Below, one piece after another: positions 41,767 through 57,052 of a stretch of 64,000 bases of DNA. How positions within the stretch are numbered: the first letter of the stretch is position 1; the number at the start of each line of letters is the position of its first letter. The position numbers were made by a program, and so were the translations under genes. Origin of the DNA: Ardenticatena maritima (GTDB lineage: Bacteria > Chloroflexota > Anaerolineae > Ardenticatenales > Ardenticatenaceae); assembly GCF_001306175.1 (NCBI RefSeq), contig NZ_LGKN01000009.1:1-64000 (forward strand), written 5' to 3'. The notes under the pieces were generated by a model. The model saw only the letters and a list, made by a program, of their open reading frames with translations, was not told the DNA's origin and did not search any database.

Positions 41767-42798
41767 TCAAAATGTTTCGGTAACTTTGCTCAAAAAGCGT
41801 GGTTGTTCAGTATCCAAATGGCGTGTGCGCGTGAGGGCGTAGGTAAAGAGTTGCGCCAGAACAATCGCGGGGAAGGGCGCCAGGTGCTCAGGAACATCCG
41901 GCAGGTTGATAGCACGGTGCGCCAACGCCGCCGTTTCCGAGACGTTTGAGACGACCAGCACATCGGCATCGGTTTCTTGCACAAGGTAGCGCACGAACGC
42001 ATGCGCCGATTCCCACGCTTTGCCGCGTGGCGCCAGCACAAACACCGGCACGTCGCGCTCCAACATCGCTTTGGGTCCATGCTGAAAATCGGCAATGGAG
42101 AAGGCTTGCGCCTGCACGTAGGTCAATTCTTGCAGTTTGAGCGCCCATTCCGCCGCCGTGCCAAACACCAACCCGCGCCCCAACACAAAGCAGCGCGCCA
42201 TAAAGCGGTAGCGCTCTGCCAAAGCGGTCATCTCATCTTCACGCTGCAACACATCCGCCACCAGCGACGGCACTTGCGCCAGGTCGCGCCAAAGGGCTTC
42301 ATTTTCAGCCAGCGCCGCCCCAAGCATGGCGATGAGGAGTAATTGCGCGGTGTAGGTTTTGGTGGCGGCAACGGCGCGCTCTTCGCCGGCCTGCAAGTCA
42401 AGCAGATGGTCGGCAACGACGGCGAGCGGCGACGTGGCGTCATTGGTTATGGCAAGGGTGAGCGCGTTTTGCGCCCGCGCCACTTCAAGCGCGCGCACCA
42501 CATCGGGCGAACGCCCCGACTGCGAGACCCCCAGCACCAAGGCGTCATCCAATGGCACAAGCGCTTCATACAGCGTAAACAGTGAAAGCGGCACCGTCTC
42601 GACGGATACGCCGGCGAGCAGCGGCCACCACCACGCCCCCAAAAGCGCAGCATGGCGCGACGAGCCACGCGCCGCCACCACCACGCGCCGAACACCGTGC
42701 CGACGGATGGCTTCCGCCACCTGTTCAACATCGGGGCGCGCCAAGAGCACGCGCTCCAAAACATCCGCCTGTTCACGAATTTCATGAATCAAACTCAT
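41767..42798 (-). CDS. SIS-domain sugar isomerase, probable glucosamine-6-phosphate deaminase (NagB-II type)
   Basis: A 343-residue protein with two SIS domains like the isomerase half of GlmS but without its glutaminase domain. Visible are VVVAARGSSRHAALLGA, the phosphosugar-binding VSQSGRSPDVVRALE, TKTYTAQLLLIAMLG, IADFQHGPKAML and a C-terminal LSKVTET signature found in NagB-II/AgaS-type deaminases. It is coupled by ATGA to nagA, and no classical NagB is in the locus, so the likely reaction is GlcN-6-P to fructose-6-P plus ammonia, the last step of GlcNAc catabolism. A different aminosugar isomerase role cannot be excluded. Confidence 0.82.
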   Translation of the reverse strand: MSLIHEIREQADVLERVLLARPDVEQVAEAIRRHGVRRVVVAARGSSRHAALLGAWWWPLLAGVSVETVPLSLFTLYEALVPLDDALVLGVSQSGRSPDVVRALEVARAQNALTLAITNDATSPLAVVADHLLDLQAGEERAVAATKTYTAQLLLIAMLGAALAENEALWRDLAQVPSLVADVLQREDEMTALAERYRFMARCFVLGRGLVFGTAAEWALKLQELTYVQAQAFSIADFQHGPKAMLERDVPVFVLAPRGKAWESAHAFVRYLVQETDADVLVVSNVSETAALAHRAINLPDVPEHLAPFPAIVLAQLFTYALTRTRHLDTEQPRFLSKVTETF

Positions 42799-44006
42799 GC
42801 GACAACTCCTATCAACATCGTTTCATCGTCAAAAGGGGCCGAAGACGACACCTCCACCCGGTCGAGCCGTTCGTACACCACTTCACCACCAACAATGGTG
42901 GCGACGACTTCACAGCGGGGCGTGATGAGCGTCAAGTCGGCGTCATATCCCACGAGGATACGCCCTTTGGGAAGCCCAAAGAGTTCGGCGGGCGTGCGCG
43001 TCACGGTGGTAACGGCTTCGGTCAGCGAGCACCCCACAAAACGCTGGACGTTGCGCAACGCCTGGTCGAGTGTGGCGATACTCCCCGCCAGCGTGCCATT
43101 GGGCAAACGGGCATCGGTTTCGCCGACGATGACTTCCAAATCGCCCAGATGGTAGCGTCCCGGCGGCATGCCCAGCGCCGCCATGCCGTCGGTCACGGTG
43201 ATAATGCGGTGCGGACCTTTACAGCGCCAGGCAATCTCCACCATCGCCGGGTGGGTGTGAATGCCGTCCGCAATCAACCCGACAACGGCTTCGGGATTGG
43301 TGAGGAGCGCCCCAGCCATGCCCGGCTCACGGTGCGCCAGGGGCGCCATGGCATTGAAAAGGTGGGTCCCGCACATGACGCCGGCTTTGAAGGCGGCTTC
43401 GGCTTCTTCAAAGGTCGCCATGGTATGCCCGGCAGAGACAATCACGCCGCGCTGGCGCAGAAAACGCGCCAAATCGAGCGCGCCGGGCAGTTCGGGTGCG
43501 AGCGTCACCCACCAGACGCCATGCTCCGGCGACCAGTCGGCAACTGCGGCGGGGTCGGGCAAACGCAAGTGGATGGGGTTGTGCGCACCCCGTTTTTGCG
43601 GGTTCAGGAATGGGCCTTCAATGTGCAAGCCCAGCGGTCGCGCGCCGCGCCATCCCGCGGGGGGGCCCGCCTGCCAGACCGCCATGGCTTCGGCAATGCG
43701 CGCCAATGGCGAGGTGATGACGGTGGGCAAAAAAGCCGTCACGCCAAAGCGCGGCAATTGGGCGGCCACGTCCCACATGGTTGTGGGGTCTTCTGTGAAG
43801 TCGTGCCCAAATCCACCGTTCAGCTGGCAATCAATCCACCCCGGTGTGAGCAACAACCCATTGCCTTGAATACGTCGCGCCCCGGCGGCTTCATGCACTT
43901 CACCACTATTTTGAATCGCCGCGATACGCCCATTGTCAATGAATACGTCCTGGCGCGGCAACAGCCGCTCAGGAGTGACGAGGGTGACATTTTCAATCCA
44001 CAGCAT
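42795..44006 (-). CDS. nagA: N-acetylglucosamine-6-phosphate deacetylase
   Basis: A 403-residue amidohydrolase converting GlcNAc-6-P to GlcN-6-P and acetate. Diagnostic motifs are LTPGWIDCQLNGGFGHDF, LHIEGPFLNPQKRGAHN (metal Glu), SAGHTMATFEEAEAAFKAG (metal His), THLFNAMAPLAHREPG, VGLIADGIHTHPAMVEIA, and the catalytic Asp in ITVTDGMAALGM. It lies between the LPMO-chitinase and the SIS enzyme, overlapping the latter by ATGA. The 69-base gap upstream has a GC-rich hairpin near 44031-44061 but no T-run. Confidence 0.96.
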   Translation of the reverse strand: MLWIENVTLVTPERLLPRQDVFIDNGRIAAIQNSGEVHEAAGARRIQGNGLLLTPGWIDCQLNGGFGHDFTEDPTTMWDVAAQLPRFGVTAFLPTVITSPLARIAEAMAVWQAGPPAGWRGARPLGLHIEGPFLNPQKRGAHNPIHLRLPDPAAVADWSPEHGVWWVTLAPELPGALDLARFLRQRGVIVSAGHTMATFEEAEAAFKAGVMCGTHLFNAMAPLAHREPGMAGALLTNPEAVVGLIADGIHTHPAMVEIAWRCKGPHRIITVTDGMAALGMPPGRYHLGDLEVIVGETDARLPNGTLAGSIATLDQALRNVQRFVGCSLTEAVTTVTRTPAELFGLPKGRILVGYDADLTLITPRCEVVATIVGGEVVYERLDRVEVSSSAPFDDETMLIGVVA

Positions 44007-44075: not shown

Positions 44076-46727
44076 TTAGGGGGATTGCAACGCTTCATGC
44101 AAGGTGTAGAGCAACGATGTCGGCGGCGCCGGTACGCCCCGCACGTCTTCGCTCAACTCCCAGAACATGGCGCCCCGCAAGCCTTCGGCTTTCAGATACT
44201 GCACTTTGCGCACAATCGTGTCGGGGTCGTCATAGGTGATGAAAGTTGTCCCGTTGAAGAGCCAGGGCACTTGCGCCTGTGGGTGGAAGAACTTTTGATA
44301 CGTCGGCTCGTAGTTCGCCACGATGTCGGCGTAATCGAGCATACCGTTTTCCCACGTCCCCGGCCCGACGCGCCCAGCCGGCTGATACAACCCATCACCA
44401 TTGGGCCCCGGCGACACTTCCGTCCAACTGCGCCCATAGAACGGCAAGCCCAGCACCAATTTCTCGCGCGGCACGCCGGCATTGATGTAGTTCTGCACGG
44501 CGGCGTGCACGTTGAAGTTGATGGGGTCTTCCGATGGGTCGTTGGGCGAGTAGTAGAGCGGCGCGTTGAAATTCGTGACGTTCTCCCAGTCGCCGTGGAA
44601 ATCGTAGGTCATGATGTTGATGAAATCGAGATACTGCTGCATCTGTGCCAGTTCCATGTTGTTGATGATCGTGGGTCCCGCACCGCCGGCAATTGTGAGC
44701 AAGTAGGGCTGGCCGGTTTGCGCACTGAGCGCATCCAACTGATTGCGAAATTCAGCCAGCAGGAGCGTGTAGTTCTGTTTGTCTTCCGGTCGGCCGGGAG
44801 TGAGACCGCCTTCAACCGGATACTCCCAGTCAATGTCAATGCCGTCGAAAATGCCGGGGTGAGTGCCATACGAACCGCCAAACTCACCCTTGATGAACAG
44901 GTCAATGCACGATTGCACGAACGCCTGGCGCGACGCATCGGTCAGCGCCACGTCCGAGAATTTACCCGACCACGTCCAGCCGCCGATGGAGATGAGCACT
45001 TTCAGGTGTGGGTACTGCTCTTTGAGCAGGCGCAACTGGTTGAAACTGCCGCGCAGTGCGCCCGCGTCCCATGAATCGCCGGGGTAGAATTTGTCCACGT
45101 CGGCGTAGGGGTCTCCCAACACACAACGCCCATCGTTGGAAATGTTGGCGAAGGCGTAGTTGATGTGCGTCAGTTTGGACGCATCAATGTCCATGACGTG
45201 ATAGTCGCTGTCATAGACCCCCCATGAGGGGTAATAGCCCACAACAATGTAGTCGCTCGACGGCGGCACTGTGGGCGTCGCCGTCGGCGTCGGCGTAGGT
45301 GTTGGCGTCGCTGTCGGCGACGCGGGCGTGCTAGTGGCCGTTGGTGTTGGCGTTGGCGTCGCTGTCGGCGACACAGGCGTGCCGGTGGCCGTCGGTGTCG
45401 GTGTCTGCGGTTTCGACTGCAAAATCAGCGGCAAGAAAGCCTGTGGCGCCATGTTGGTTGGTGTAGGAGACGGGGTTTGTATTGGCGTCGCCGTGGGCGT
45501 TGCTGTAGGTGAGACGGGTGTCGGCGTACTGCCGACACTGCACGGGCCCAAATCTTCCCAGACGCCCCACTGCCCCGTGGTGCCCGGTTCCTCGCCCTGC
45601 GTCCACCACTTCGCGCGCCATTCATGCCCGTTGTGCGACACGACGTCGCCGCTTGTGTAGACCGCGTTCGCATCCCACGCCGGCGCACTGCACACGCCGC
45701 CCGGCGTGGGCGTTGGCGGCACGGGCGTGCTGGTGGGTTGCGGTGTCGCTGTCGGCGGCACGGGCGTGCTGGTCGGCTGTGGCGTCGCCGTTGGTGGCAC
45801 GGGCGTGTTGGTTGGCTGTGGCGTCGCCGTTGGCGGCACGGGCGTGCTGGTGGCGGATGGCGTCGCTGTGGGCGGGATGGGTGTCGGCGCAGTGCCACCG
45901 CTGCACGCGCCCAAATCTTCCCAGACGCCCCACTGCCCCGTGGTGCCCGGTTCTTCGCCCCGCGTCCACCACTTCGCGCGCCATTCATGCCCGTTGTGCG
46001 ATACCACGTCGCCGCCCACATACGCCACGGCGGCATTCCACGCCGGCGCACTACACACGCCTGCATCGGGGGTGGGCGTTACCGTAGGCGCTGGTTCGCC
46101 GCCACCGCTCGCCTGAAAAACGACGTCAGAACAGGCGTAAAACGCTTCGGGGCTATCAGTGCGCTGCCAAATGGCGTAGATGACGTGTCGCCCAGTGCGC
46201 GCGGGAATGGTGGCTTGAAATTCATACGCCCCATTGACCAGCGGCGGATCGGACACCACAGCAAACTGCTCCAAGTCAGACCATTTGAGCGGCTGTGTGG
46301 GATCATAGCCATCTTTCGTGATGTAAAGTTCAAAGTATCCTGGATGTGGTGCCGTCGCTGCAAATTTGAAAGTGTAATCACCACTCTGGACGACCGTTGC
46401 CGGCCAATCGGCGCGCGGGGTATCAAACGCCGCATACTTGGCGCGATTGGCGCTGCACAATTTTCCGTCCGGTATCAGTTCCCGATGGCGACCATTCGCA
46501 TCACCAATGTTGACCTCATTCCAATCGTAAAGCGGTTGTGTGCCCCCCACTGAAACGGCATACTGGCACGCCGCTGATGTGGGGCTCTCAGGACCTTCCA
46601 GAAAGCAGGAATAGACTCGGCTCGCCGGTGAGGAGAGCGTACCATGCGCCCATGTAGGTTCGATATTCACAAACAACGCGACGCCCACTAACACAAGACA
46701 CCCAACAAGTAATCGCAGGAATTTCAT
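44076..46727 (-). CDS. Secreted AA10 LPMO-CBM5-CBM5-GH18 chitinase fusion
   Basis: An 883-residue secreted, multi-module chitin-degrading enzyme. A signal peptide ends at ...EPTWA, leaving His28 as the mature N-terminus. Residues 28-205 are an AA10 lytic polysaccharide monooxygenase: [27 protein letters not shown], the second copper-brace His128 in [20 protein letters not shown], and [18 protein letters not shown]. Two CBM5/12-like chitin-binding modules lie at ~225-275 and ~346-396, joined by Pro/Thr linkers with 13-residue repeats. The C-terminal GH18 chitinase (~492-880) has SIGGW and the DxxDxDxE site in [11 protein letters not shown] with acid/base Glu635, plus MTYDFHG. It would oxidise crystalline chitin and hydrolyse the freed chains. 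The linker includes [11 protein letters not shown], of unknown role. Confidence 0.95.
45540..45692 (-). repeat. CBM5-like module copy 1 (in LPMO-chitinase)
   Basis: One of four nearly identical ~150-bp segments encoding CSAPAW...[10 protein letters not shown] in two adjacent chitinase genes. Shared DNA includes long runs without any difference, so homology is recent or kept by gene conversion. Confidence 0.85.
45705..45884 (-). repeat. 39-bp tandem repeat coding Pro/Thr linker
   Basis: Four to five tandem 39-bp units coding [13 protein letters not shown] join the two CBM5-like modules. Units are nearly identical in DNA, so copy number probably varies between strains by slippage. Confidence 0.8.
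45903..46055 (-). repeat. CBM5-like module copy 2 (in LPMO-chitinase)
   Basis: Second copy in this gene. It has [15 protein letters not shown], where copy 1 has [15 protein letters not shown]; otherwise the core is the same. Confidence 0.85.
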
Positions 46728-46745: not shown

Positions 46746-49421
46746 TTAGTTGCACGCGCCCAAATCTTCCCAGACGCCCCACTGCCCCGTGGTGCCCGGT
46801 TCCTCGCCCTGCGTCCACCACTTCGCGCGCCATTCATGCCCGTTGTGCGATACCACGTCGCCGCCTATGTAGACCGCGCTCGCATCCCACGCCGGTGCAC
46901 TGCACACGCCGCCCGGCGTGGGCGTTGGCGGCACGGGTGTGCTGGTCGGCTGTGGCGTCGCCGTTGGCGGCACGGGCGTGCGGGTAGCAGGTGGCGTCGC
47001 TGTGGGCGGGATGGGTGTCGGCGTGCTGCCGCCGCTGCACGCGCCCAAATCTTCCCAGACGCCCCACTGCCCCGTGGTGCCCGGTTCTTCGCCCCGCGTC
47101 CACCACTTCGCGCGCCATTCATGCCCGTTGTGCGACACGACGTCGCCGCCCACATACGCCACGACAGCACTCCACGCCGGCGCACTGCATACGCCTGCAT
47201 CGGGGGTGGGCGTTGGCGGCACAGGGGTGCCACTCGTAGGTGGTGTGGCGGTTGGCGGCACGGGCGTGCTCGTCGTGGGTGGCGTTGTCGGTGTTTGCGT
47301 GGGCGTTGGCGTCTGACCGCCCAAATCCGCTAGCGGCAAGGTGGGGTATTCGCTGTGGAAGGCGTAGCGCACACCGTTGACTTCAATGGTGTAATGCGAT
47401 GGTCCCGAAATGGGGAGTTTGTAGCGGATGTTGAATTCAACCGCCGCCCCATCAGGCCACGATTGCCAGGCGGGCAACGTCACCGCGACACGGTGAAAAT
47501 CGCCGCGCAATCCCCCAACATTGGGACCTTGATGCCCAACGTTGATGACCTGCAAGCCCCACCCGCTCATATCGCCAATGTCGGACGGGGTGGATGTGGG
47601 CACGTCAAACTCGATGCGTGTGCCGCCGGGCAATGTTGTTCCCGTGCGGTTGATGAACTTGATTTTGGGCGTAATGGGGTAGTTGTTGTCGCCCACAGGG
47701 AAGTCGTACACGTCCACTTCGATATCCAGCGCTTGCGCAGGCAATGGGTCGAGCCAGCGCCGCGCCTCATAGGGTGAAGCGGTTTTGAGCGCGTCGTACA
47801 GCGTGCTTACCAGCGTATCGCCAAAAAAGTATTCGCCCCGGTCGGCGTGGAAGGCGTAATCGCCCGCCAATTCCCAAATCATCACGCCGCCAATGCCCTT
47901 TTCGGCCACGTAGGCGGCTTTGTCGCGCAGGGATTGTTCGTCTTCAATAGAGAGGAAGACGCGCTTCTGCTCATTCCAGAGCCAGGGCGCTTTGGCGACG
48001 TCGTCATAGTAGCGTGTGTAGGTGCCCACCAGTTGGTCGGCGGGGTCGTTCTGGGGGTCCAGCCCATACGCCGCCAGATACGAGGGCGCGATGCCCGCTT
48101 CGAGGTTCTTGGCGTGCCACATGGGATTGGAACCGGAGTAGAGTTCATTCCCGTTCGGGTCGAGGTCGTGCCAGAGGTTGTCAATGCCCATGGCGCCGTA
48201 GCCGCATTTGCTGGTGCCCAACCCCGTGCCAGGCGGGCAAGCGTTTTGATCAGGCAAGGCGGCGCGCCCCCACAAGCCGTGTGTGCCACCGCTGACGCCT
48301 TGCCAGCCCCGCGTATAGAAGGGCACGCCGATGTTGATGCGCCCCGGCGGCAATGAGCCGCGGAAGTAGTGATACGCCCAATCCGCGTTGAGATAGCCGA
48401 TGCCGTCATAGGCGCTGTACACGTTGGCGGCTGCCAATTCGGCGTCTTCGCCGGTGTCGAAGAGCGGCGCATTGTGTCCCACAAAGTCGTTCCATGAACC
48501 GTGCAAATCGTACGTCATGATGTTGACGAAATCGAGGTACTGCGTCACGCTGAAATCTTCCATGCCGCGCAACAGCCAGCCAGAAGCGGGAACAGCCGCC
48601 GTGAGCAAGTAATGTTTGCCGTCCTGCGCGCCGGCGGCGTCCAGCCGTTCGCGCAGGGTGCGCATGAGCACTTCATACCGCGCCCACAGCACGTCGCGGT
48701 GTTTGTCGGCAATCCACCAATCATCAGGATTGCCCGCCTTGGACATGGATGTGGGGTATTCGTAGTCAATGTCCACGCCGTCAAAGCCGTAGGTGCGCAA
48801 AAAGTCAACAACCGAATCGGCGAAGGCTTCAATGCCCGCGTCGGTCAGCGTCATCTCGTAGAAACCGCCGCTGGCAACGCGCTGCCCATTGGCGTCAAAG
48901 TAGCCGCCGGTTTCCGCCCACCCCCCTACGGAGATGAGGGTTTTGACGTGCGGATATTGCCGCTTGTAGACCGTCAACAAGTTGAAGTGTCCCTTGTAGG
49001 GCAAGGTTGGGTCGAGTTCAGCGCCGGGGACGCCCGGCCATTCCATGCCCGTTGAAGGGTTGTTGGGGTCAGATGGGTCGCCGATAGAAATGCGATGATC
49101 GGGTCCGACGTGTGCAAACGCATAGTTGATGTGTGTAATTTTCTCCCAAGGAATATCGGAGACGAGATAGGCGGGTTGTCCGTTCTTGCCATGACGCCAG
49201 GCGGTGAAATAGCCGATGATGCGGCGAGTGTGATTGGGACCCAATCGTTCGCGCCCCGTTTCATCGTACACCGTGCAGTAGGGCGATTGAACGCCGGGCG
49301 TTGCGTAAAGTCCTTCGGGACGGCACGCGGCATGGTCTACTGCGGTTTGCGCATTGGCTTGCGTGAAGCCAAACAACAGCGCCACCACCAGACCAAGCCC
49401 CAAGAAGAGCCGATGTGTCAT
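46746..49421 (-). CDS. Secreted GH18 chitinase with two C-terminal CBM5-like modules
   Basis: An 891-residue secreted endochitinase. A signal peptide (RLFLGLGLVVALLFGFTQANA) precedes a long GH18 domain (~65-560) with TLISVGGWAE, the active site YGFDGVDIDYEYP (Glu221) and NIMTYDLHGSW. A beta-rich domain at ~575-705 (EVDVYDFPVGDNNYPITPKI ... LGGLRGDFHRVAV-type strands) resembles accessory chitin-binding domains. Two CBM5/12-like modules at ~743-795 and ~838-891 close the protein, each after a Pro/Thr linker. Tyr replaces the Trp next to the catalytic Glu seen in the neighbouring GH18. It lies between the GH3 gene and the LPMO fusion, 18 bases upstream of the latter. Confidence 0.95.
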   Translation of the reverse strand: MTHRLFLGLGLVVALLFGFTQANAQTAVDHAACRPEGLYATPGVQSPYCTVYDETGRERLGPNHTRRIIGYFTAWRHGKNGQPAYLVSDIPWEKITHINYAFAHVGPDHRISIGDPSDPNNPSTGMEWPGVPGAELDPTLPYKGHFNLLTVYKRQYPHVKTLISVGGWAETGGYFDANGQRVASGGFYEMTLTDAGIEAFADSVVDFLRTYGFDGVDIDYEYPTSMSKAGNPDDWWIADKHRDVLWARYEVLMRTLRERLDAAGAQDGKHYLLTAAVPASGWLLRGMEDFSVTQYLDFVNIMTYDLHGSWNDFVGHNAPLFDTGEDAELAAANVYSAYDGIGYLNADWAYHYFRGSLPPGRINIGVPFYTRGWQGVSGGTHGLWGRAALPDQNACPPGTGLGTSKCGYGAMGIDNLWHDLDPNGNELYSGSNPMWHAKNLEAGIAPSYLAAYGLDPQNDPADQLVGTYTRYYDDVAKAPWLWNEQKRVFLSIEDEQSLRDKAAYVAEKGIGGVMIWELAGDYAFHADRGEYFFGDTLVSTLYDALKTASPYEARRWLDPLPAQALDIEVDVYDFPVGDNNYPITPKIKFINRTGTTLPGGTRIEFDVPTSTPSDIGDMSGWGLQVINVGHQGPNVGGLRGDFHRVAVTLPAWQSWPDGAAVEFNIRYKLPISGPSHYTIEVNGVRYAFHSEYPTLPLADLGGQTPTPTQTPTTPPTTSTPVPPTATPPTSGTPVPPTPTPDAGVCSAPAWSAVVAYVGGDVVSHNGHEWRAKWWTRGEEPGTTGQWGVWEDLGACSGGSTPTPIPPTATPPATRTPVPPTATPQPTSTPVPPTPTPGGVCSAPAWDASAVYIGGDVVSHNGHEWRAKWWTQGEEPGTTGQWGVWEDLGACN
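46752..46904 (-). repeat. CBM5-like module copy 3 (C-terminus of GH18 chitinase)
   Basis: Same sequence type as the copies in the neighbouring gene, with WWTQGEE, closest to copy 1. It ends the protein one residue after the last Cys. Confidence 0.85.
47037..47189 (-). repeat. CBM5-like module copy 4 (in GH18 chitinase)
   Basis: The WWTRGEE version, closest to copy 2. The paired order R-type then Q-type is the same in both genes, suggesting that the tandem pair was copied as a unit. Confidence 0.85.
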
Positions 49422-49496: not shown

Positions 49497-51164
49497 TTAC
49501 GACGACATGTCGGCCGACTTGCCTTCGTGGGGCTTCGATGCAGGGATGACGGTCAAATGGCGAGTCGTGTGCAAACCGTGGCCGCGGGGGAACAGCCCCG
49601 GAAGAGAGACGGGTAAACGTCCTGAGAATGGAATTTCACCAAAGAGGGCTTTGGCGAGTGCTTCGATGGAAGGGGGTTGCAGGCTGTACGTGCAAACAAA
49701 GGTGCGCACCTGCGGGAATGCTGTCAGGTCGTAGGGCAAGCGCAACGCCACAACGATGGGTTGCACGCCGGCCGCCACCAAGGCTCGCACCAGGTCGGCT
49801 TGCGCGGGTTGTTGCCAGGCGTTCTGTGTGGCAACGATGACGTAATCAAAAATGCGCGCCTGCTCGACAAGGCTGGCGATTTCGTCCTCGCCGGGGTCGG
49901 GGGGGAAGATGTATTCGCACACCAGGGGATGAAAACGGCGGAGCGCGCGCCCCAATTGGAGCCGCACCGTCGAAGAGGTATCGGCGGGGGTCAAATCAAC
50001 CGGCTGAGGCACGAAGACGCCAATCCGCGCCGAGGCGCTGGGGCGCAAGGGCAACACATGGTTTTCATCGCGCACAAGGGTGATGGAGCGTTCGGCGATT
50101 TCTTGCGCAACGCGGCGGTGGGCTTCACACGCCAACACGTCCAGCGTAGGCTGGGGCGCTTGTTCGGCAACCCAGCGGCGCAACTGGCGCACGGGGTGCG
50201 TGCCGGCGCGCGCCTGAGCAGACGGCCACAAACCGCGTTCCAGCGCCTGTTGCAGCGCACGCACAACCCGCGCCTGGTCGTCAACCTGGGGACCCAGCAA
50301 CAACAGGTTGTTGCCCGCCAGCACCGCCGCCAAACTATCCAGAATCAGCCCTTCGCCCTGGCGAATGGCGTGCATGTCCAGCGCATCGCTCACCACCACC
50401 CCTTCAAACCCCAATTCGCGCCGCAACACCCCTTCAATGACGGCGCTCGACAGCGTTGCGGGCAACGTCTCCTGCCCGGTGATGGACGGCACCGCCACAT
50501 GCGCCGTCATCACCAGCCGCACCCCCGCTTCGATCGCGGCGGCGAAAGGCACCCACTCCATGCGCGCCAACCGATCGCGCCCATGCGGCACCACGGGGGC
50601 TTTGCGGTGCGAATCCTCGGCGGTATCGCCGTGTCCGGGGAAATGCTTGGCGGTAGCGGCAACCCCCTGGCGCTGCATCCCCCGAATCATCGCCGCCGCC
50701 AGCCGCGCCACCTCGTGCGGGTCTTCACCGAACGAACGCACGCCAATCACCGGGTTGTGGGGATTGCTGTTGACGTCGCAGACAGGCGCATAGTTGACAT
50801 TGACCCCCAACGCCGCCAACTCGCGCCCAATCACCTCACCCGCGCGAAACGCCAGGTCGTCGGAGCCGGTCGCGCCGAGCGCCATGTTGCCGGGGAGCGC
50901 CGTTACCCCCTCCCCGATAGCCGCCAACTGTCCCCCCTCCTGGTCGGCGGCAATCAGAAACGGCGCCCCCCCGACTTCACGGGCAACCTGCTGGATGGCG
51001 TCGGTCAGCGCGCGCACTTGCGCCGGCGATTCGATATTCAGATGGCGAAAGAGCGTCACCCCGGCGGGACGCCACGCCAACAGGCGCTCGCGGACGGCCT
51101 GGTCTAGTGCCGTGCCTTCAAACGCCAGCAACACATGGTCTCCGACTACCTGTTCGTACCCCAT
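49497..51164 (-). CDS. GH3 beta-N-acetylhexosaminidase (NagZ-like)
   Basis: A 555-residue glycoside hydrolase family 3 enzyme. The TIM barrel has PFLIAADQEGGQLAAIGEG, the KHFPGHGDTAEDSH loop (K173, H174, catalytic D184-H186 pair) typical of the NagZ branch, and the nucleophile Asp260 in GVVVSDALDMHAI. The extra C-terminal ~200 residues form the second GH3 domain, absent from short NagZ. No signal peptide is visible, so it acts in the cytoplasm, cutting imported chito-oligosaccharides to GlcNAc. It follows the permease genes by 12 bases. Confidence 0.92.
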   Translation of the reverse strand: MGYEQVVGDHVLLAFEGTALDQAVRERLLAWRPAGVTLFRHLNIESPAQVRALTDAIQQVAREVGGAPFLIAADQEGGQLAAIGEGVTALPGNMALGATGSDDLAFRAGEVIGRELAALGVNVNYAPVCDVNSNPHNPVIGVRSFGEDPHEVARLAAAMIRGMQRQGVAATAKHFPGHGDTAEDSHRKAPVVPHGRDRLARMEWVPFAAAIEAGVRLVMTAHVAVPSITGQETLPATLSSAVIEGVLRRELGFEGVVVSDALDMHAIRQGEGLILDSLAAVLAGNNLLLLGPQVDDQARVVRALQQALERGLWPSAQARAGTHPVRQLRRWVAEQAPQPTLDVLACEAHRRVAQEIAERSITLVRDENHVLPLRPSASARIGVFVPQPVDLTPADTSSTVRLQLGRALRRFHPLVCEYIFPPDPGEDEIASLVEQARIFDYVIVATQNAWQQPAQADLVRALVAAGVQPIVVALRLPYDLTAFPQVRTFVCTYSLQPPSIEALAKALFGEIPFSGRLPVSLPGLFPRGHGLHTTRHLTVIPASKPHEGKSADMSS

Positions 51165-51176
51165 TGTTCCCCCTTC

Positions 51177-52088
51177 TCAGCCTTTCGAGCCGCTCAACAC
51201 AATGCCGCTGATGAGATAGCGTTGCGCGACGAAGAACACGAGCAGCAACGGCAACGCCGTCAGCACCGAGGCGGCCATGATGGTTGGCCAGGGTTGCGTG
51301 GTCTGCTGTGGGTTGACCAACGACGCCACATAGACGGGCAACGTGTAGAGTTTGGTGGTTTGCAGGTAGATAATCGGTTGCAACAGAGCGTTCCAATGCC
51401 CGACGAAGAGGAACGTCGAAACGGTTGCCAGCGCCGGGCGGCAAAGCGGCAAGATAATGCTCCACCAAATCCGCAAGTGCGACGCCCCGTCAAGGAAGGC
51501 GGCTTCGTCCAATTCGCGCGGCAATTGCAGCATAAACTGGCGCAACAAGAAGACCATAGCCGCACCGCCGGCAAAATAGCCGGGAATGGTGAGCGGGTTG
51601 TACGTGCCAATCCAGCCCACTTTGTTGAAGAAGACGTACTGCGGCACAATCAGCGCCTGGAACGGAATCATCATCGTTGACAGCATGAGGAAGAAGACCA
51701 CGTTGCGCCCCGGCCACTCAATGCGGCTGAACGCATACGCCACCGCGCTGACCGAAATGAGCGTGCCCAGCACCGCCAGCGCCGTCACGAAAATGGAGTT
51801 GGCGTAGGCGCGCAGAAAGTCCACATCTTGCAGAATTTGGGTGTACGCCGTCAATTGCGGGTCGGATGGGAACCAGACCAATTGCGGGGCGTTGGCTTCC
51901 TCGTATGTTTTGAACGAGGTGAGAACCATCCAGATGAGCGGCAACGCCATCACCAGGCTCCCCGCTGTCAGGAACAGATAGAGCACCCCGCGTTCCACCC
52001 GCGTTTGCCATGTGCGCCACCGCGCCCCGCTCACAGCCAGATGAGCCACCTCGGTTTGCTTGCGTGCTTCATGCGCCTGCATGCGCAT
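51177..52088 (-). CDS. ABC sugar transporter permease, MalG-type
   Basis: A 303-residue inner-membrane permease with six helices and the cytoplasmic EAA loop ELDEAAFLDGASHLRIWWSI that docks the ATPase. It belongs to the CUT1 family of oligosaccharide importers. It lies between the MalF-type permease and the GH3 gene. The cargo is inferred from context to be chito-oligosaccharides. Confidence 0.93.
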   Translation of the reverse strand: MRMQAHEARKQTEVAHLAVSGARWRTWQTRVERGVLYLFLTAGSLVMALPLIWMVLTSFKTYEEANAPQLVWFPSDPQLTAYTQILQDVDFLRAYANSIFVTALAVLGTLISVSAVAYAFSRIEWPGRNVVFFLMLSTMMIPFQALIVPQYVFFNKVGWIGTYNPLTIPGYFAGGAAMVFLLRQFMLQLPRELDEAAFLDGASHLRIWWSIILPLCRPALATVSTFLFVGHWNALLQPIIYLQTTKLYTLPVYVASLVNPQQTTQPWPTIMAASVLTALPLLLVFFVAQRYLISGIVLSGSKG

Positions 52089-52109: not shown

Positions 52110-53252
52110 TTAGCGCAGGTCGTATTGCACCCAGCGGTCTTGGAATCGGAATTGGAAGTAGGTAATCACCAGAATGATGAGCGTCAGAATCCAGGAGATG
52201 GCGGCGCCATAGCCAATTTCATTGAAGCGGAATGTCGCCCGCCACAGGTAGAACACCACGGTATAACTCGACTGCGCCACCGTCGGGCTGTCGCGCAACA
52301 AGACGTAGGGTTGCTCGAACATTTGTATGATGGCAATCATGCCCACGATGAGGTTGTAAAACGTCGCCGGCGAGATGAGCGGCAAGGTGATTTTCCAGAA
52401 GCGCTGCCAGCGTGTCGCACCGTCCACTTCGGCGGCTTCGTAAAATTCGGGGGGAATGCTGTTGAGCGCCGCCAGATAGATGAGCATCATCGAGCCGCAA
52501 CTCCAGACCAGCAACAGCACAATGGACGTTTTGGTCCAAAGCGGGCTTTGCAACCAAAGCGGGACACGGTGCGCCGCCGGGAAGGCGCTGATGGTTTTCT
52601 CAAAGAGCGTAAAGTTGCCGCTTTGCAAACCGAGGAAAAAGGCGTTGAGGCTTTCGTTGGCATAGATGAAGGCGCGCAACAACAGGTTGAACAGCGTTGA
52701 TTTCTTGCTGAGCATGCGCAACAACGTGTTGATGAACCCGTTGTTGGCGTTGAACATGAGCACCCACGAAAGCAGCACCGCTGCGTTCAACCCCAGAATG
52801 ACCGGCAGATAAAACGCTGTGCGGAAGAAGCGCTCGCCGCGCAGTTTTTGGTTCAGCAAAATGGCCAACAGCAACGCCACAACCAGTTGTGCCGGCAAAC
52901 CAAAGAGCACAAAATAAAATGTGTTCACCAAAGCCGCGCGGAAGTTGGGGTCATCCGTCAGCAGGCGCACGTAGTTTTGCACCCCCACCCACTGCGGCGG
53001 ATTGGGCAACCGATAGACTGTGAAACTCCAATACAATGAAGCCGCCACCGGCACAAGCACGAAAATCACAAACCCCACCATCCAGGGGGCGGCAAAGGCG
53101 TAGCCCGCAAACGCATTTTGCTGGTGAATCTGAGACCCGCCGCGCCACCGAACAATCAAGCGCGCCACCCAGCCCAGCGCCACGCTTGACGCCAAGATGA
53201 AAGCCACCGTCGCCGCCGACCAGACCAGGGTATAGCCATAACTTTCCAGCAT
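52110..53252 (-). CDS. ABC sugar transporter permease, MalF-type
   Basis: A 380-residue permease with an extra N-terminal helix. The EAA loop reads EFYEAAEVDGATRWQRFWKI. A long extracytoplasmic loop around residues 165-225 is unusual for the size class. GAGGAGG stands a few bases before ATG 53252, right after the interleaved inverted repeats at 53275-53318. It pairs with the MalG-type subunit. Confidence 0.92.
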   Translation of the reverse strand: MLESYGYTLVWSAATVAFILASSVALGWVARLIVRWRGGSQIHQQNAFAGYAFAAPWMVGFVIFVLVPVAASLYWSFTVYRLPNPPQWVGVQNYVRLLTDDPNFRAALVNTFYFVLFGLPAQLVVALLLAILLNQKLRGERFFRTAFYLPVILGLNAAVLLSWVLMFNANNGFINTLLRMLSKKSTLFNLLLRAFIYANESLNAFFLGLQSGNFTLFEKTISAFPAAHRVPLWLQSPLWTKTSIVLLLVWSCGSMMLIYLAALNSIPPEFYEAAEVDGATRWQRFWKITLPLISPATFYNLIVGMIAIIQMFEQPYVLLRDSPTVAQSSYTVVFYLWRATFRFNEIGYGAAISWILTLIILVITYFQFRFQDRWVQYDLR

Positions 53253-53330: not shown

Positions 53331-54746
53331 TTACTGAATCATGCCGGCGTCTTGGAGTACCTGCGTGTAGGCGCTCTGAATGTTCGCCAAGGTCGTATCA
53401 AGGTCTTGCAAGTCGGTGAAGTAGGCCGACATTTCGCGCTGCAAAATTTCGCGGAGCTTGGCGGTTTCGCGGATGTCGGCAAAGCCGCGGCCGTACTCGT
53501 TCATCAAGTCGCCCATGATTTGCATCGGCTTCGCTTCTTCCACATAGCCGAACCAGGCGTCGGTACGCGGCGGGAAGGAGCCAAAGTCCTTGTTGTAGCG
53601 GTTCAGGTTCTCAGCCGAACCGAGGAACTTCAAGAACTCGGCGGCTTCGGGCACATGCTTCGAGTAGGCGGGAACAGCCAGCCAGTCGTTGAAGACCTGC
53701 ACCACCGGGCGGCTTTCGGGGTAGTTGTCCGGGTCGGTCAAGCCGGGGCTGAACACAATCTGTTCCCACAGCGGGTCGTCCACAGGCGGCGCGCCCCACA
53801 AGTTGCCCCACATGCAGACCGCCGTCCCATCCGCCAGGCGCGAGCCGTTGGCTTCGGGCAGGTCGGCAATGGTTTCATCGGGATAGACGGCGCGGCGGCG
53901 GTCGTACATGAATTTGAGCGCATCACGCGCCTGCGGCGAATCGAAGGCGGGTTCACCGTTTTCCTTGTAGAGTTCGCCACCCAGCGACCAGATGAGCGCG
54001 ATGTACTCTTGCCAGTCATCCAGGCGCCCCGTGGTGACGATACCGGCACGCTTCAGCGCACCGTCTTCGATGATTGTGCCGGCGCGGGCTTCTTCAATCG
54101 CTTCGGGGAAGGTGCGCGGCGGCTGCTCAAAGCCGATTTCCGCCAGCAAGTCGCTGCGGCACATGTAGGCGCGCGGCGCGGTCAGCCAGGGCAAGCCGCG
54201 CAATTCGCCCTTCCACGTCACCGTGTCCAGCGCGGCGGGCACAAACTGCTTGATGTCCGGCCAGGCCTCTTCGCCCAAGTAGGCGTTCAGCGGCGCCAGG
54301 CGGTCGCCATAGGCGGCGATGTATTCCGACCCCAGGTTGATGATGTCAGCGCCGTCGCCGGCCGCAAAGTAGCCTTGCACCGTTTCGTCCAACGTGCCCC
54401 AGTTCACGTAGATGAATTCGACGTCAATGTTGGGGTGCTCTTTCTGGAAGGCGGGCACGACTTCGTTTTCCAGCCAAACGTCGGTCTTGTCCTTGATGTA
54501 GTCCACCACCATGACGCGCAACGTCACTTTTTCGCCACTGCTCTCGGCGGGCGCGCTTTCTTCCTAGGTGGCTTCTTCTTGCGTTGTGGTTTCTTCGGTT
54601 GTCTGTTCGCTCTGCGTTGATTCTTCGGTTTGGGTGGTCTGTTCCTGTTGCGGTTCAGACGGCTCAGATGATTCAGACGAACCACCACAGGCGGCTAACG
54701 CCAACGCCAAAATCACCAAAAGGGTCGCCAGCCAGCGGATACGCAT
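53331..54746 (-). pseudogene. Sugar ABC transporter binding lipoprotein with in-frame TAG in the linker
   Basis: A family 1 extracellular solute-binding protein of CUT1 importers. The signal peptide starts at ATG 54746 (AGGAGGAGG upstream) and ends in the lipobox ALAAC (Cys20), followed by an acidic Ser/Thr/Gln/Glu linker. Codon 61 is TAG (54566-54564). The same frame resumes as EESAPAESSGEKVTLRVMVV and gives a full ~400-residue binding domain (WGTLDETVQGYFAAGDGADI; AGIVTTGRLDDWQEYIALIW; FLKFLGSAENLNRYNKDF). So one base change, probably from GAG or CAG, splits the gene. A restart at GTG 54527 lacks a good ribosome site and a signal peptide. Unless read through or corrected, uptake by this system would be lost, while neighbours look intact. 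Confidence 0.85.
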
Positions 54747-54814: not shown

Positions 54815-55828
54815 CTACGCGCTTTTGCTCTCCGTTCCCCCACCTCCTTTCTCTGATTGCGGCTCAGCCTTTTCTCGGGCGGCATGCGCCAACGCCCATG
54901 CGCCGACCATGCCCGCCTCGGTTTCCCCCGACAGGACTGTGAGTTTTTCATCCAACCCGAACAGGTCGAACAAGCGGGAATGCCCATACTGCGCACGCAA
55001 GGCGCGGCGCACAATAGGCAGAAGCACGTCTGCTTCACGGGCAACGCCACCGCCAAGCACCACCTTGTCCACATCCAGCCCAAACACCAACCACGCAATC
55101 GCCTGGGCAAGCATGGCGGCGCTGCGCTCCACCAGGTGTTGCGCCAGGCGGTCGCCCTGTCGCGCGGCGGCGTACACAGCCCGCGCGTCCAGCGGTTCCG
55201 CTTCCGCCAGCAGACTTTCCGGCACATGCACCAGCGCGATTTGGGCTTGCCGCGCCAGCCCCGTTCCCGATACCACCGTTTCCAGGCATCCCCGCGCACC
55301 GCATGCACACGGCGCACCGTCCGGGTCAACCACCACATGCCCAATTTCCCCCGCCAGGCCATTCGACCCGCGGTACACGCGCCCATCCAGCACAATGCCG
55401 GCCGAAAAGCCCGTCCCAATGCCCAAATACACCAGGCTGCGCAATGGTTCGCGCTGTTGGAGCAAGTGGAACGCCCCCAACGCGGCGGCGCTCGTATCGT
55501 TTTCAACCACAACCGGCACGCCAACACGCATGGCAAGCAAGTCCCTCAATGGGCATTCATCAATCCCCAAATTGACCGCCTGCCGCACGACGCCATCGCG
55601 TACTTGCCCCGGTATGCCAACGCCAACAGCGCCAAGGTGCGCCCCCATCGCGCGCAAACGTTCAACAAAGTGCTGCACCGTTGCCGAGAGCAGATCCACC
55701 AACTCCCCGGCGGGCGGTGTCGCCATACGGACCACATCGAGAAAACGGCCATCGCCATTGGCAACCCCTGCGGCGATTTTCGTCCCCCCCACATCAAAGC
55801 CAACGAAGAATGTCCGTGTTGCCACCAT
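54815..55828 (-). CDS. ROK-family sugar kinase (GlcNAc or glucose kinase)
   Basis: A 337-residue kinase. The phosphate loop is FVGFDVGGTKIAAGVA, the catalytic Asp lies in VVENDTSAAALGA, and the ROK zinc site is CACGARGCLE preceded by GLAGEIGHVVVD. It would phosphorylate GlcNAc released by the GH3 enzyme, giving the NagA substrate; glucose kinases share these motifs. ATG 55828 has AGGGG eight bases upstream. A second ATG at 55849, three bases after the regulator stop, is possible. Confidence 0.88.
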   Translation of the reverse strand: MVATRTFFVGFDVGGTKIAAGVANGDGRFLDVVRMATPPAGELVDLLSATVQHFVERLRAMGAHLGAVGVGIPGQVRDGVVRQAVNLGIDECPLRDLLAMRVGVPVVVENDTSAAALGAFHLLQQREPLRSLVYLGIGTGFSAGIVLDGRVYRGSNGLAGEIGHVVVDPDGAPCACGARGCLETVVSGTGLARQAQIALVHVPESLLAEAEPLDARAVYAAARQGDRLAQHLVERSAAMLAQAIAWLVFGLDVDKVVLGGGVAREADVLLPIVRRALRAQYGHSRLFDLFGLDEKLTVLSGETEAGMVGAWALAHAAREKAEPQSEKGGGGTESKSA

Positions 55829-55852
55829 CCAGATTGCCCCTGCGTTCATCGG

Positions 55853-57052
55853 TTAGCGCAATCCCAGTTCGCGCGACAGCACATAGGCTGACGCGCCCAA
55901 CAACGGGGCTTCATCGCCCAATGCCCCAAATGCCACCTCGCATTGGGCTGCCAATTCCGGCAAAACCGAACGGTGCAACGCCGCCTGCACCGCGTCAATG
56001 AACCGGTCGCCGAAAACGCGCACCGGTCCGGTCAAACGCACGTAGCGCACGTTGAGCACACCCACAACAGCCGCCAGGGCGCGCCCCAGCCAGTGCGCCG
56101 TCTCATCCACCACATCGCCCAAGCGGGCGTCAACCGCCAGGGCGTCGGCAATGCGGGCGCAACTCAGCGGCGGCGTCAACAGCGTCGCCGCCGGCGAATC
56201 TGGGTGAACGGTGAGCCAATGGCGCACGTTGGCGAACAAGGCGCGCATGCTGGACACCGTCTCCAAACATCCACGATTGCCGCATGAGCAGAGCACGCCA
56301 TCATCAGCCACCACCAAGTGCCCAATTTCACCGGCGCTGAACCCATCCCCGTAGAAGAGTTGCCCGTTCAACACCAGCCCGGAACCAATACCAGGCCCCA
56401 CCTTGACCACCACAACGTTGGCGTCGGGGGAGCCCATGCCGAAAGTGTATTCGGCCAGCGCCGTCAGATGACTGTCGTTCGCCACATACACAGGCACGCC
56501 GAAGCGTGTCTGGAGCCGCTCTCTGAGCGGGACATCTTGCCATTGCAGGTTCACCGCGCGGCACACAATGCCGTTTTCGGTATCCACCAGACCGGGTGAA
56601 CTGATCCCAATGCCGACCACAGGGGCTTGCCGCTCCGCATACAGCGCGTCGAGCAACGCATCGAGGCGCGCCAGCGCGGCTTCGCCCGTTAGGTCTTCAG
56701 CGTCAGCCACCTGCTCACGCAACACGCGTCCGCGCAAATCCAGCGCCGCCGCCCGAAACTGGTCGCCGCTCACGTCCACAGCGAAGACCTCGCGCGCTCC
56801 ATCAACCACACGCAACAGCAAAGGCGGCTTCCCCCCCGCGGACGAGGCTTCACCAATGCCGGCTTCCTCCACCAGGCCATCGCGCATCAACTCCGCCACC
56901 AAGTCTGAGACGGTGGCTTTGGTGAGGCGCGTCAGGCGGGCAACATCCGCGCGGCTGATACCGTCCTGGGCGTCGAAAATATGCCGCAAGACGAGGCGTC
57001 GGTTGTGTTCACGTGTTTGGCGTCGCGTTGCTTTTTCGGTTCGTGTGCGCAT
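55853..57052 (-). CDS. ROK-family transcriptional repressor (NagC/XylR-like)
   Basis: A 399-residue regulator. An N-terminal winged helix (~15-75: NRRLVLRHIFDAQDGISRAD, VARLTRLTKATVSDLVAELM) is fused to a ROK sugar-sensing domain with the zinc motif CSCGNRGCLE and GEIGHLVVADDG. In NagC relatives GlcNAc-6-P releases the repressor. Its own promoter at 57093-57121 overlaps a GTTTACTAAAC palindrome, suggesting autorepression and control of the chitin operon that follows. Confidence 0.9.
   Translation of the reverse strand: MRTRTEKATRRQTREHNRRLVLRHIFDAQDGISRADVARLTRLTKATVSDLVAELMRDGLVEEAGIGEASSAGGKPPLLLRVVDGAREVFAVDVSGDQFRAAALDLRGRVLREQVADAEDLTGEAALARLDALLDALYAERQAPVVGIGISSPGLVDTENGIVCRAVNLQWQDVPLRERLQTRFGVPVYVANDSHLTALAEYTFGMGSPDANVVVVKVGPGIGSGLVLNGQLFYGDGFSAGEIGHLVVADDGVLCSCGNRGCLETVSSMRALFANVRHWLTVHPDSPAATLLTPPLSCARIADALAVDARLGDVVDETAHWLGRALAAVVGVLNVRYVRLTGPVRVFGDRFIDAVQAALHRSVLPELAAQCEVAFGALGDEAPLLGASAYVLSRELGLR

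Follow-up and report, generated by a model that had tools for sequence, protein, structure and literature searches.

Analysis of a 64,000-nucleotide stretch of Ardenticatena maritima DNA (contig NZ_LGKN01000009.1; hereafter the window) identified a single open reading frame of 883 amino acids, starting with ATG, in which an LPMO domain of family AA10, two CBM5 modules and a GH18 chitinase domain are joined. Judging from its sequence, the product is very probably a secreted, bicatalytic chitin-degrading enzyme, acting within the pathway encoded by the surrounding gene cluster and assembled separately from its counterpart in Jonesia denitrificans. The fusion appears to be a real and well-defined protein, and the function proposed for it is probable. 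While the AA10-CBM5-GH18 architecture is already known from J. denitrificans, the AA10 lineage and the thermophilic host are different here; the points of more interest are the separate assembly, the recurrence in Chloroflexota of fusions between LPMOs and hydrolases, and a CBM5 pair that evolves in concert with that of the adjacent gene. The nearest AA10 locus among 84,980 genomes is found in the same genus, in Ardenticatena sp. S012_161 (contig WFOS01000008.1), where a syntenic ortholog has the identical domain order.

Layout of the fusion gene

Pfam places LPMO_10 (PF03067) at residues 28-202 (E 2.5e-58; 198 bits against a cut-off of 23; profile positions 1-183) and Glyco_hydro_18 at residues 495-861 (E 1.6e-95; profile positions 2-317 of 317); CBM_5_12 is matched twice (47.9 and 44.6 bits, cut-off 26.2). 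All four matches lie well over the curated cut-offs. These E-values, together with the presence of an ortholog in another Ardenticatena genome, exclude a chance resemblance. The first-pass annotation, made from the letters alone, had read the order as AA10, two CBM5-like modules and a GH18 domain with an intact DxxDxDxE motif. Pfam bears out this order in every structural point, and the motif is present, as DGIDIDWE, in a complete domain (Table 1). The sequence AAGGAGAGG, immediately 5′ of the start codon, is a plausible ribosome-binding site.

The best PDB matches of the GH18 domain are 5gzu and 1itx, which we take to be Paenibacillus ChiW and Bacillus circulans ChiA1, respectively. The whole catalytic motif is kept, and by sequence the domain is ChiA1-like.

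The linkers of the fusion protein measure approximately 67 residues (linker 1) and 94 residues (linker 2), the latter containing a 14-residue stretch that is missing from the ortholog. Linker 2 contains the sequence FLPLIL (45420-45437, aa 431-436). Short [FY]LP-type tails of this kind are found at the C-termini of three further Chloroflexota AA10 proteins (L017, L018 and L028) and are possibly a C-terminal signature. We did not adopt the idea that FLPLIL is the relic of a former C-terminus left at the point of fusion, since the ortholog is devoid of it.

Table 1. Features of the fusion gene and its neighbours, and other AA10 fusions. Positions are those of the window unless a locus is named.
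Feature	Position	Strand	Basis
Whole gene: signal peptide-AA10-CBM5-CBM5-GH18, 883 aa	44076..46727	(-)	ORF + Pfam
Predicted signal peptide, aa 1-27, cleavage between TWA and H	46647..46727	(-)	sequence + ortholog (VAWA, then H)
AA10 LPMO domain, aa 28-205	46113..46646	(-)	Pfam, PDB matches, AlphaFold2 model
Copper-brace His28	46644-46646	(-)	sequence
Copper-brace His128	46344-46346	(-)	sequence
CBM5/12 module 1, aa 224-276	45900..46058	(-)	Pfam
Pro/Thr-rich linker 1, aa 277-344	45696..45899	(-)	sequence
CBM5/12 module 2, aa 345-397	45537..45695	(-)	Pfam
Pro/Thr-rich linker 2, aa 398-492	45252..45536	(-)	sequence
GH18 chitinase domain, ChiA1 type, aa 493-883	44079..45251	(-)	Pfam + PDB matches
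DGIDIDWE, aa 628-635, in GH18	44823-44846	(-)	sequence
SIS-domain glucosamine-6-phosphate deaminase (NagB-II type) or GlmS-like isomerase	41767..42798	(-)	
N-acetylglucosamine-6-phosphate deacetylase (nagA)	42795..44006	(-)	
Neighbouring chitinase, GH18-ChiC domain-CBM5-CBM5, 891 aa	46746..49421	(-)	
CBM5 pair of neighbouring chitinase	46770-46892, 47055-47177	(-)	
GH3, best model beta-N-acetylhexosaminidase (NagZ-type)	49497..51164	(-)	
Carbohydrate ABC transporter permease	51177..52088	(-)	
Second carbohydrate ABC transporter permease	52110..53252	(-)	
Extracellular solute-binding lipoprotein of transporter, in-frame TAG at 54564-54566	53331..54746	(-)	
ROK-family sugar kinase	54815..55849	(-)	
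ROK-family repressor, NagC/Mlc-like	55853..57052	(-)	
AA10-CBM5-GH18, other GH18 type	L027 3145-5436 (G698)		
AA10-CBM5-GH5-CBM2, Chloroflexota	L028 3272-5839 (G542)		
AA10-CBM2-GH10-CBM2, Chloroflexota	L014 3192-6161 (G150)		
AA10-GH18 without CBM5, actinobacterium, 2.0 Mb genome	L125 2483-4429 (G972)		

Assembly of the fusion

At 0.567, the GC3 of the AA10-coding segment is lower than that of any of 188 blocks of equal length taken from 12 neighbouring genes (minimum 0.640); the ortholog gives 0.579 for AA10 versus 0.668 for GH18. Such a low GC3 is in line with the AA10 module having an origin of its own, and the module is therefore perhaps a fairly recent acquisition, of putative benefit. 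In the AA10 tree the domain falls, with limited support, among AA10s from Ktedonobacteria and other Chloroflexota; stand-alone AA10s from Ktedonobacteria and Actinomycetota are up to 71-73% identical to it. In the GH18 tree, a supported group of 11 rows unites the GH18 domain with other chitinases from the same class, the neighbouring chitinase and the actinobacterial protein L125. Probably, an AA10 module from clade II, of an actinobacterial or Chloroflexota lineage, was fused to a GH18 domain of Chloroflexota type, the CBM5 pair being common to the fusion and the adjacent chitinase gene.

As far as origin is concerned, and with no change in the mechanism, one might instead postulate a single ancestral AA10-GH18 gene, put together outside Chloroflexota, shared with L125 and passed on as a unit, to which the CBM5 modules were added later. 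L125 combines AA10, a linker and GH18 in one frame, in the same order as the fusion; in 386 Actinomycetota genomes no other GH18 matches nearly as well as that of L125 (54%, E 6.6e-118; 50.5% identity in a local alignment), and a joint clade with L125 is rejected neither for GH18 (AU p 0.35) nor for AA10 (AU p 0.39). However, the two proteins are unjoined in both free trees, the L125 AA10 domain is 47.5% identical to that of the fusion and sits on a very long branch, well short of the identity reached by the stand-alone AA10s, and L125 carries no CBM5, whereas the fusion does. We regard inheritance as a unit as rather unlikely and favour the joining of AA10 and GH18 modules of separate origin.

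The CBM5-linker-CBM5 blocks of the fusion (45537-46058) and of the neighbouring chitinase (46770-47177) are near-identical in DNA sequence over approximately 540 nt, except for a 78-nt gap in the linker. Within the genome the paired modules show a dS of 0.13-0.155, against 0.87-2.6 for each module and its own ortholog; the same trend, although weaker, is seen in the second Ardenticatena (dS 0.36-0.82). Because the adjoining GH18 domains are only 44% identical while the CBM5 DNA is nearly the same, these data suggest that CBM5 modules were transferred between the two adjacent genes by gene conversion or by copying more than once.

The first-pass annotation had considered AA10-GH18 fusions to be rare, and the survey agrees: of the 80 loci whose AA10 sequences are closest, the Ardenticatena ortholog is the only one with a GH18 in the same frame. 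In samples of Chloroflexota, AA10 was found in 12 of 400 genomes of the phylum and 7 of 396 genomes of the class. A second catalytic domain accompanies AA10 in five of the 23 AA10 genes from these two samples, namely the fusion gene, its ortholog and the genes from G698, G542 and G150 (Table 1). G698 is of the same phylum and class as A. maritima, and its fusion gene likewise lies in a chitin cluster, with GH18, GH3 and nagA neighbours. It belongs to another Chloroflexota family, however, and its GH18 domain matches about half of the Pfam profile (E 1.7e-12) and gives no BLAST match to the GH18 of the fusion. The AU test rejects a clade uniting the two AA10 domains (p 0.002), which argues that the AA10-GH18 fusions of G698 and Ardenticatena arose separately. 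As for Actinomycetota, where 396 genomes yielded 52 AA10 matches and five long open frames were read, a second catalytic domain was present in L125 and was not seen in L124, L126, L127 or L128.

The additional Chloroflexota fusions suggest repeated selection for tethering. Even chances can be given to the broader reading that LPMO-hydrolase fusions of this phylum are repeated and independent natural experiments (AA10-GH18 at least twice, GH5 once and GH10 once), in which Ardenticatena would supply the first such enzyme of a cultured thermophile, one that would have reached the Jonesia layout from a different AA10 clade.

The AA10 domain and its predicted copper site

The PDB sequences matched by the AA10 domain are those of ScLPMO10D (7zjb, 58%), Tma12 (6if7, 61%) and CbpD (8c5n and 7sqx, 55%), all solved AA10s with known or predicted activity on chitin. 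An AlphaFold2 model of the domain, made from an alignment of 27 relatives, has a pLDDT of 96.8; its superposition on 7zjb and on 6if7 gives Z 31.9 and an rmsd of 0.9 Å. His28 and His128 are invariant across 24-27 aligned relatives, and the copper site is surrounded by N70, T125, A126, R189, E194 and F196. The surroundings of the copper in ScLPMO10D comprise Ala132, Arg198, Glu203 and Phe205, and a polar pair, Asn76 and Thr131, is tied to activity on chitin (PMC10067821); N70 and T125 are the counterparts of this pair. The position of ScLPMO10D Arg79 is occupied by Asn in the fusion protein and likewise in Tma12. The HMM match, the structure-based alignment and the catalytic and second-sphere residues all uphold the initial assignment of the N-terminal domain to AA10.

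That assignment supposed that His28 becomes the N-terminus upon signal cleavage. The AA10 match begins at His28, which directly follows PTWA, a plausible signal peptidase I site; in the ortholog VAWA precedes HG at the same place. Exposure of His28 is thereby predicted. The sequence LVGC at residues 7-10 resembles a lipobox, and lipid anchoring through Cys10 would bury His28. Such anchoring is unlikely because the N-region is very short and contains an Arg and because the ortholog has no Cys; the context of His28 also speaks against it.

A genuine LPMO might still have cellulose or some other beta-glucan as its main target, in which case the catalytic halves would work on different chains. Clade II AA10s do include cellulose-active enzymes, one of which, CelS2 (4oy7), is structurally near (Z 29.7, 41% identity), and Chloroflexota relatives are fused to GH5 or GH10 and CBM2. 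Yet ScLPMO10D, the nearest characterised relative, is active on chitin only, and CbpD oxidises chitin (PMC10067821); the Asn/Thr pair is retained, and every partner in the protein and in the gene cluster serves chitin. A glucan target is improbable on these grounds, and chitin is the substrate that we favour.

Gene cluster, host and proposed mode of action

The fusion gene is followed downstream by nagA and the gene for the SIS-domain deaminase and preceded upstream by those for the chitinase, the GH3 enzyme, the two ABC permeases and the binding protein, the ROK kinase and the ROK repressor. From the deaminase to the binding protein, gene order is the same in Ardenticatena sp. S012_161. A genome-wide Pfam count covering AA10, GH18 and CBM5 placed the single AA10, both GH18 and all four CBM5 domains of the genome within this cluster, which is the only GH18/AA10 chitin machinery detected there. 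The in-frame TAG in the binding-protein gene falls between the lipoprotein signal and the domain, at a point where the frame of the sister species is open. It may represent a sequencing error or a strain mutation, or translation may restart at GTG 54527; unless the base was misread, the strain's pathway may be less than complete.

In the mechanism we propose, Sec export and cleavage of the signal peptide would allow His28 and His128 to bind copper. The AA10 domain, given a reductant together with O2 or H2O2, would then cut chains within crystalline chitin, most likely with C1 specificity, as the two CBM5 modules anchor the protein to the chitin surface. Borne on long Pro/Thr linkers, the ChiA1-like GH18 domain would hydrolyse the newly freed chains, chiefly to chitobiose. 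The neighbouring GH18-CBM5-CBM5 chitinase, GH3, the ABC transporter, the ROK kinase, NagA and the deaminase could complete a route to fructose-6-phosphate, and the ROK-type regulator presumably controls, and so co-regulates, the chitin pathway genes.

The first reading had also placed the protein in Chloroflexota and allowed for thermostability if the host were a thermophile. Both suppositions are consistent with what is known of the host: its nearest relative is of the same genus, and the marine A. maritima 110S, very probably the host strain, respires aerobically and grows optimally at 50-70°C (PMC4653789). Oxygen respiration and heat are compatible with the use of an LPMO and with a heat-stable enzyme. 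The strain has multiheme cytochromes at its surface (PMC5808234); that these serve as electron donors to the LPMO is speculation.

Should the habitat be low in oxygen, AA10 could serve chiefly to bind the surface, its oxidative turnover being slight or absent, and the protein would in practice be a chitinase with three binding modules. LPMOs can bind their substrate without turning it over. As a facultative anaerobe, the host reduces nitrate and iron (PMC4653789). It nevertheless has three oxygen reductases (PMC4653789) and is routinely cultured aerobically at 60°C (PMC5808234), and the copper-brace and second-sphere residues are retained in both Ardenticatena species under purifying selection. 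We consider a mainly binding role very improbable and retain an oxidising AA10 as the preferred reading.

Conservation of the fusion

Identity between the fusion protein and its ortholog is 86% over the whole length and rises to 89% in AA10 and 92% in GH18. For GH18 the dN/dS ratio is 0.033; for AA10 the synonymous sites are saturated (pS 0.744) and pN is 0.059. These figures are indicative of strong purifying selection on both catalytic halves, which disfavours both a decayed domain and an assembly artefact. Although the repetitive linker might mis-assemble, an artefact joining two genes was rejected as having a negligible probability, since the same fusion and gene order occur, with a different linker, in the independently assembled genome of the syntenic ortholog.

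Comparison with characterised enzymes

Among characterised AA10s, ScLPMO10D, Tma12 and CbpD come closest to the fusion AA10 (55-61% identity), with the same copper site and polar pair. ScLPMO10D differs in being anchored to the cell wall, in having no GH18 and in the additional Arg79 near the copper, an Arg that the fusion AA10 does not have. To our knowledge, Tma12 and CbpD carry no GH18 domain either. On the hydrolase side, ChiA1 of B. circulans (1itx) and ChiW of Paenibacillus (5gzu) share the GH18 catalytic domain and motif with the fusion protein; we know of no LPMO domain in either of them.

The literature, searched for AA10-GH18 fusions and for Ardenticatena LPMOs, yielded nothing beyond a 2023 review, according to which JdLPMO10A (Jd1381) of J. 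denitrificans was the only bicatalytic LPMO characterised by then (PMC10154629). According to the review, this AA10-CBM5-GH18 enzyme (Mekasha et al. 2020) surpasses any mix of its separate domains in degrading chitin, a case of intramolecular synergy (PMC10154629). The same review gives the order AA10, CBM5, GH18 in one secreted polypeptide, as in Ardenticatena, with one CBM5 where the Ardenticatena fusion has two. The hosts differ in phylum and in growth temperature.

The AA10 domain of JdLPMO10A (5aa7, 142 residues) is 26% identical to that of the fusion, with Z 16.9, and is placed among other chitin-active AA10s, apart from those resembling ScLPMO10D (PMC10067821), whereas the Ardenticatena domain is of the clade II, ScLPMO10D/Tma12/CbpD type (subclade A2 type). 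From the different clade and the low identity we infer that the two fusions were assembled separately. Common descent of the whole fused gene appears unlikely in this comparison of the AA10 domains, and the simplest reading within the same bounds would be that two AA10 lineages converged on a single layout.

By inference from the shared layout, the Ardenticatena fusion would work as JdLPMO10A does and, if it is as thermostable as its host suggests, would be a practical candidate for one-protein conversion of chitin at high temperature. As a second enzyme of the same layout, with another LPMO lineage and a host growing at 50-70°C, it would offer a direct test of whether tethering helps generally or in Jonesia only.
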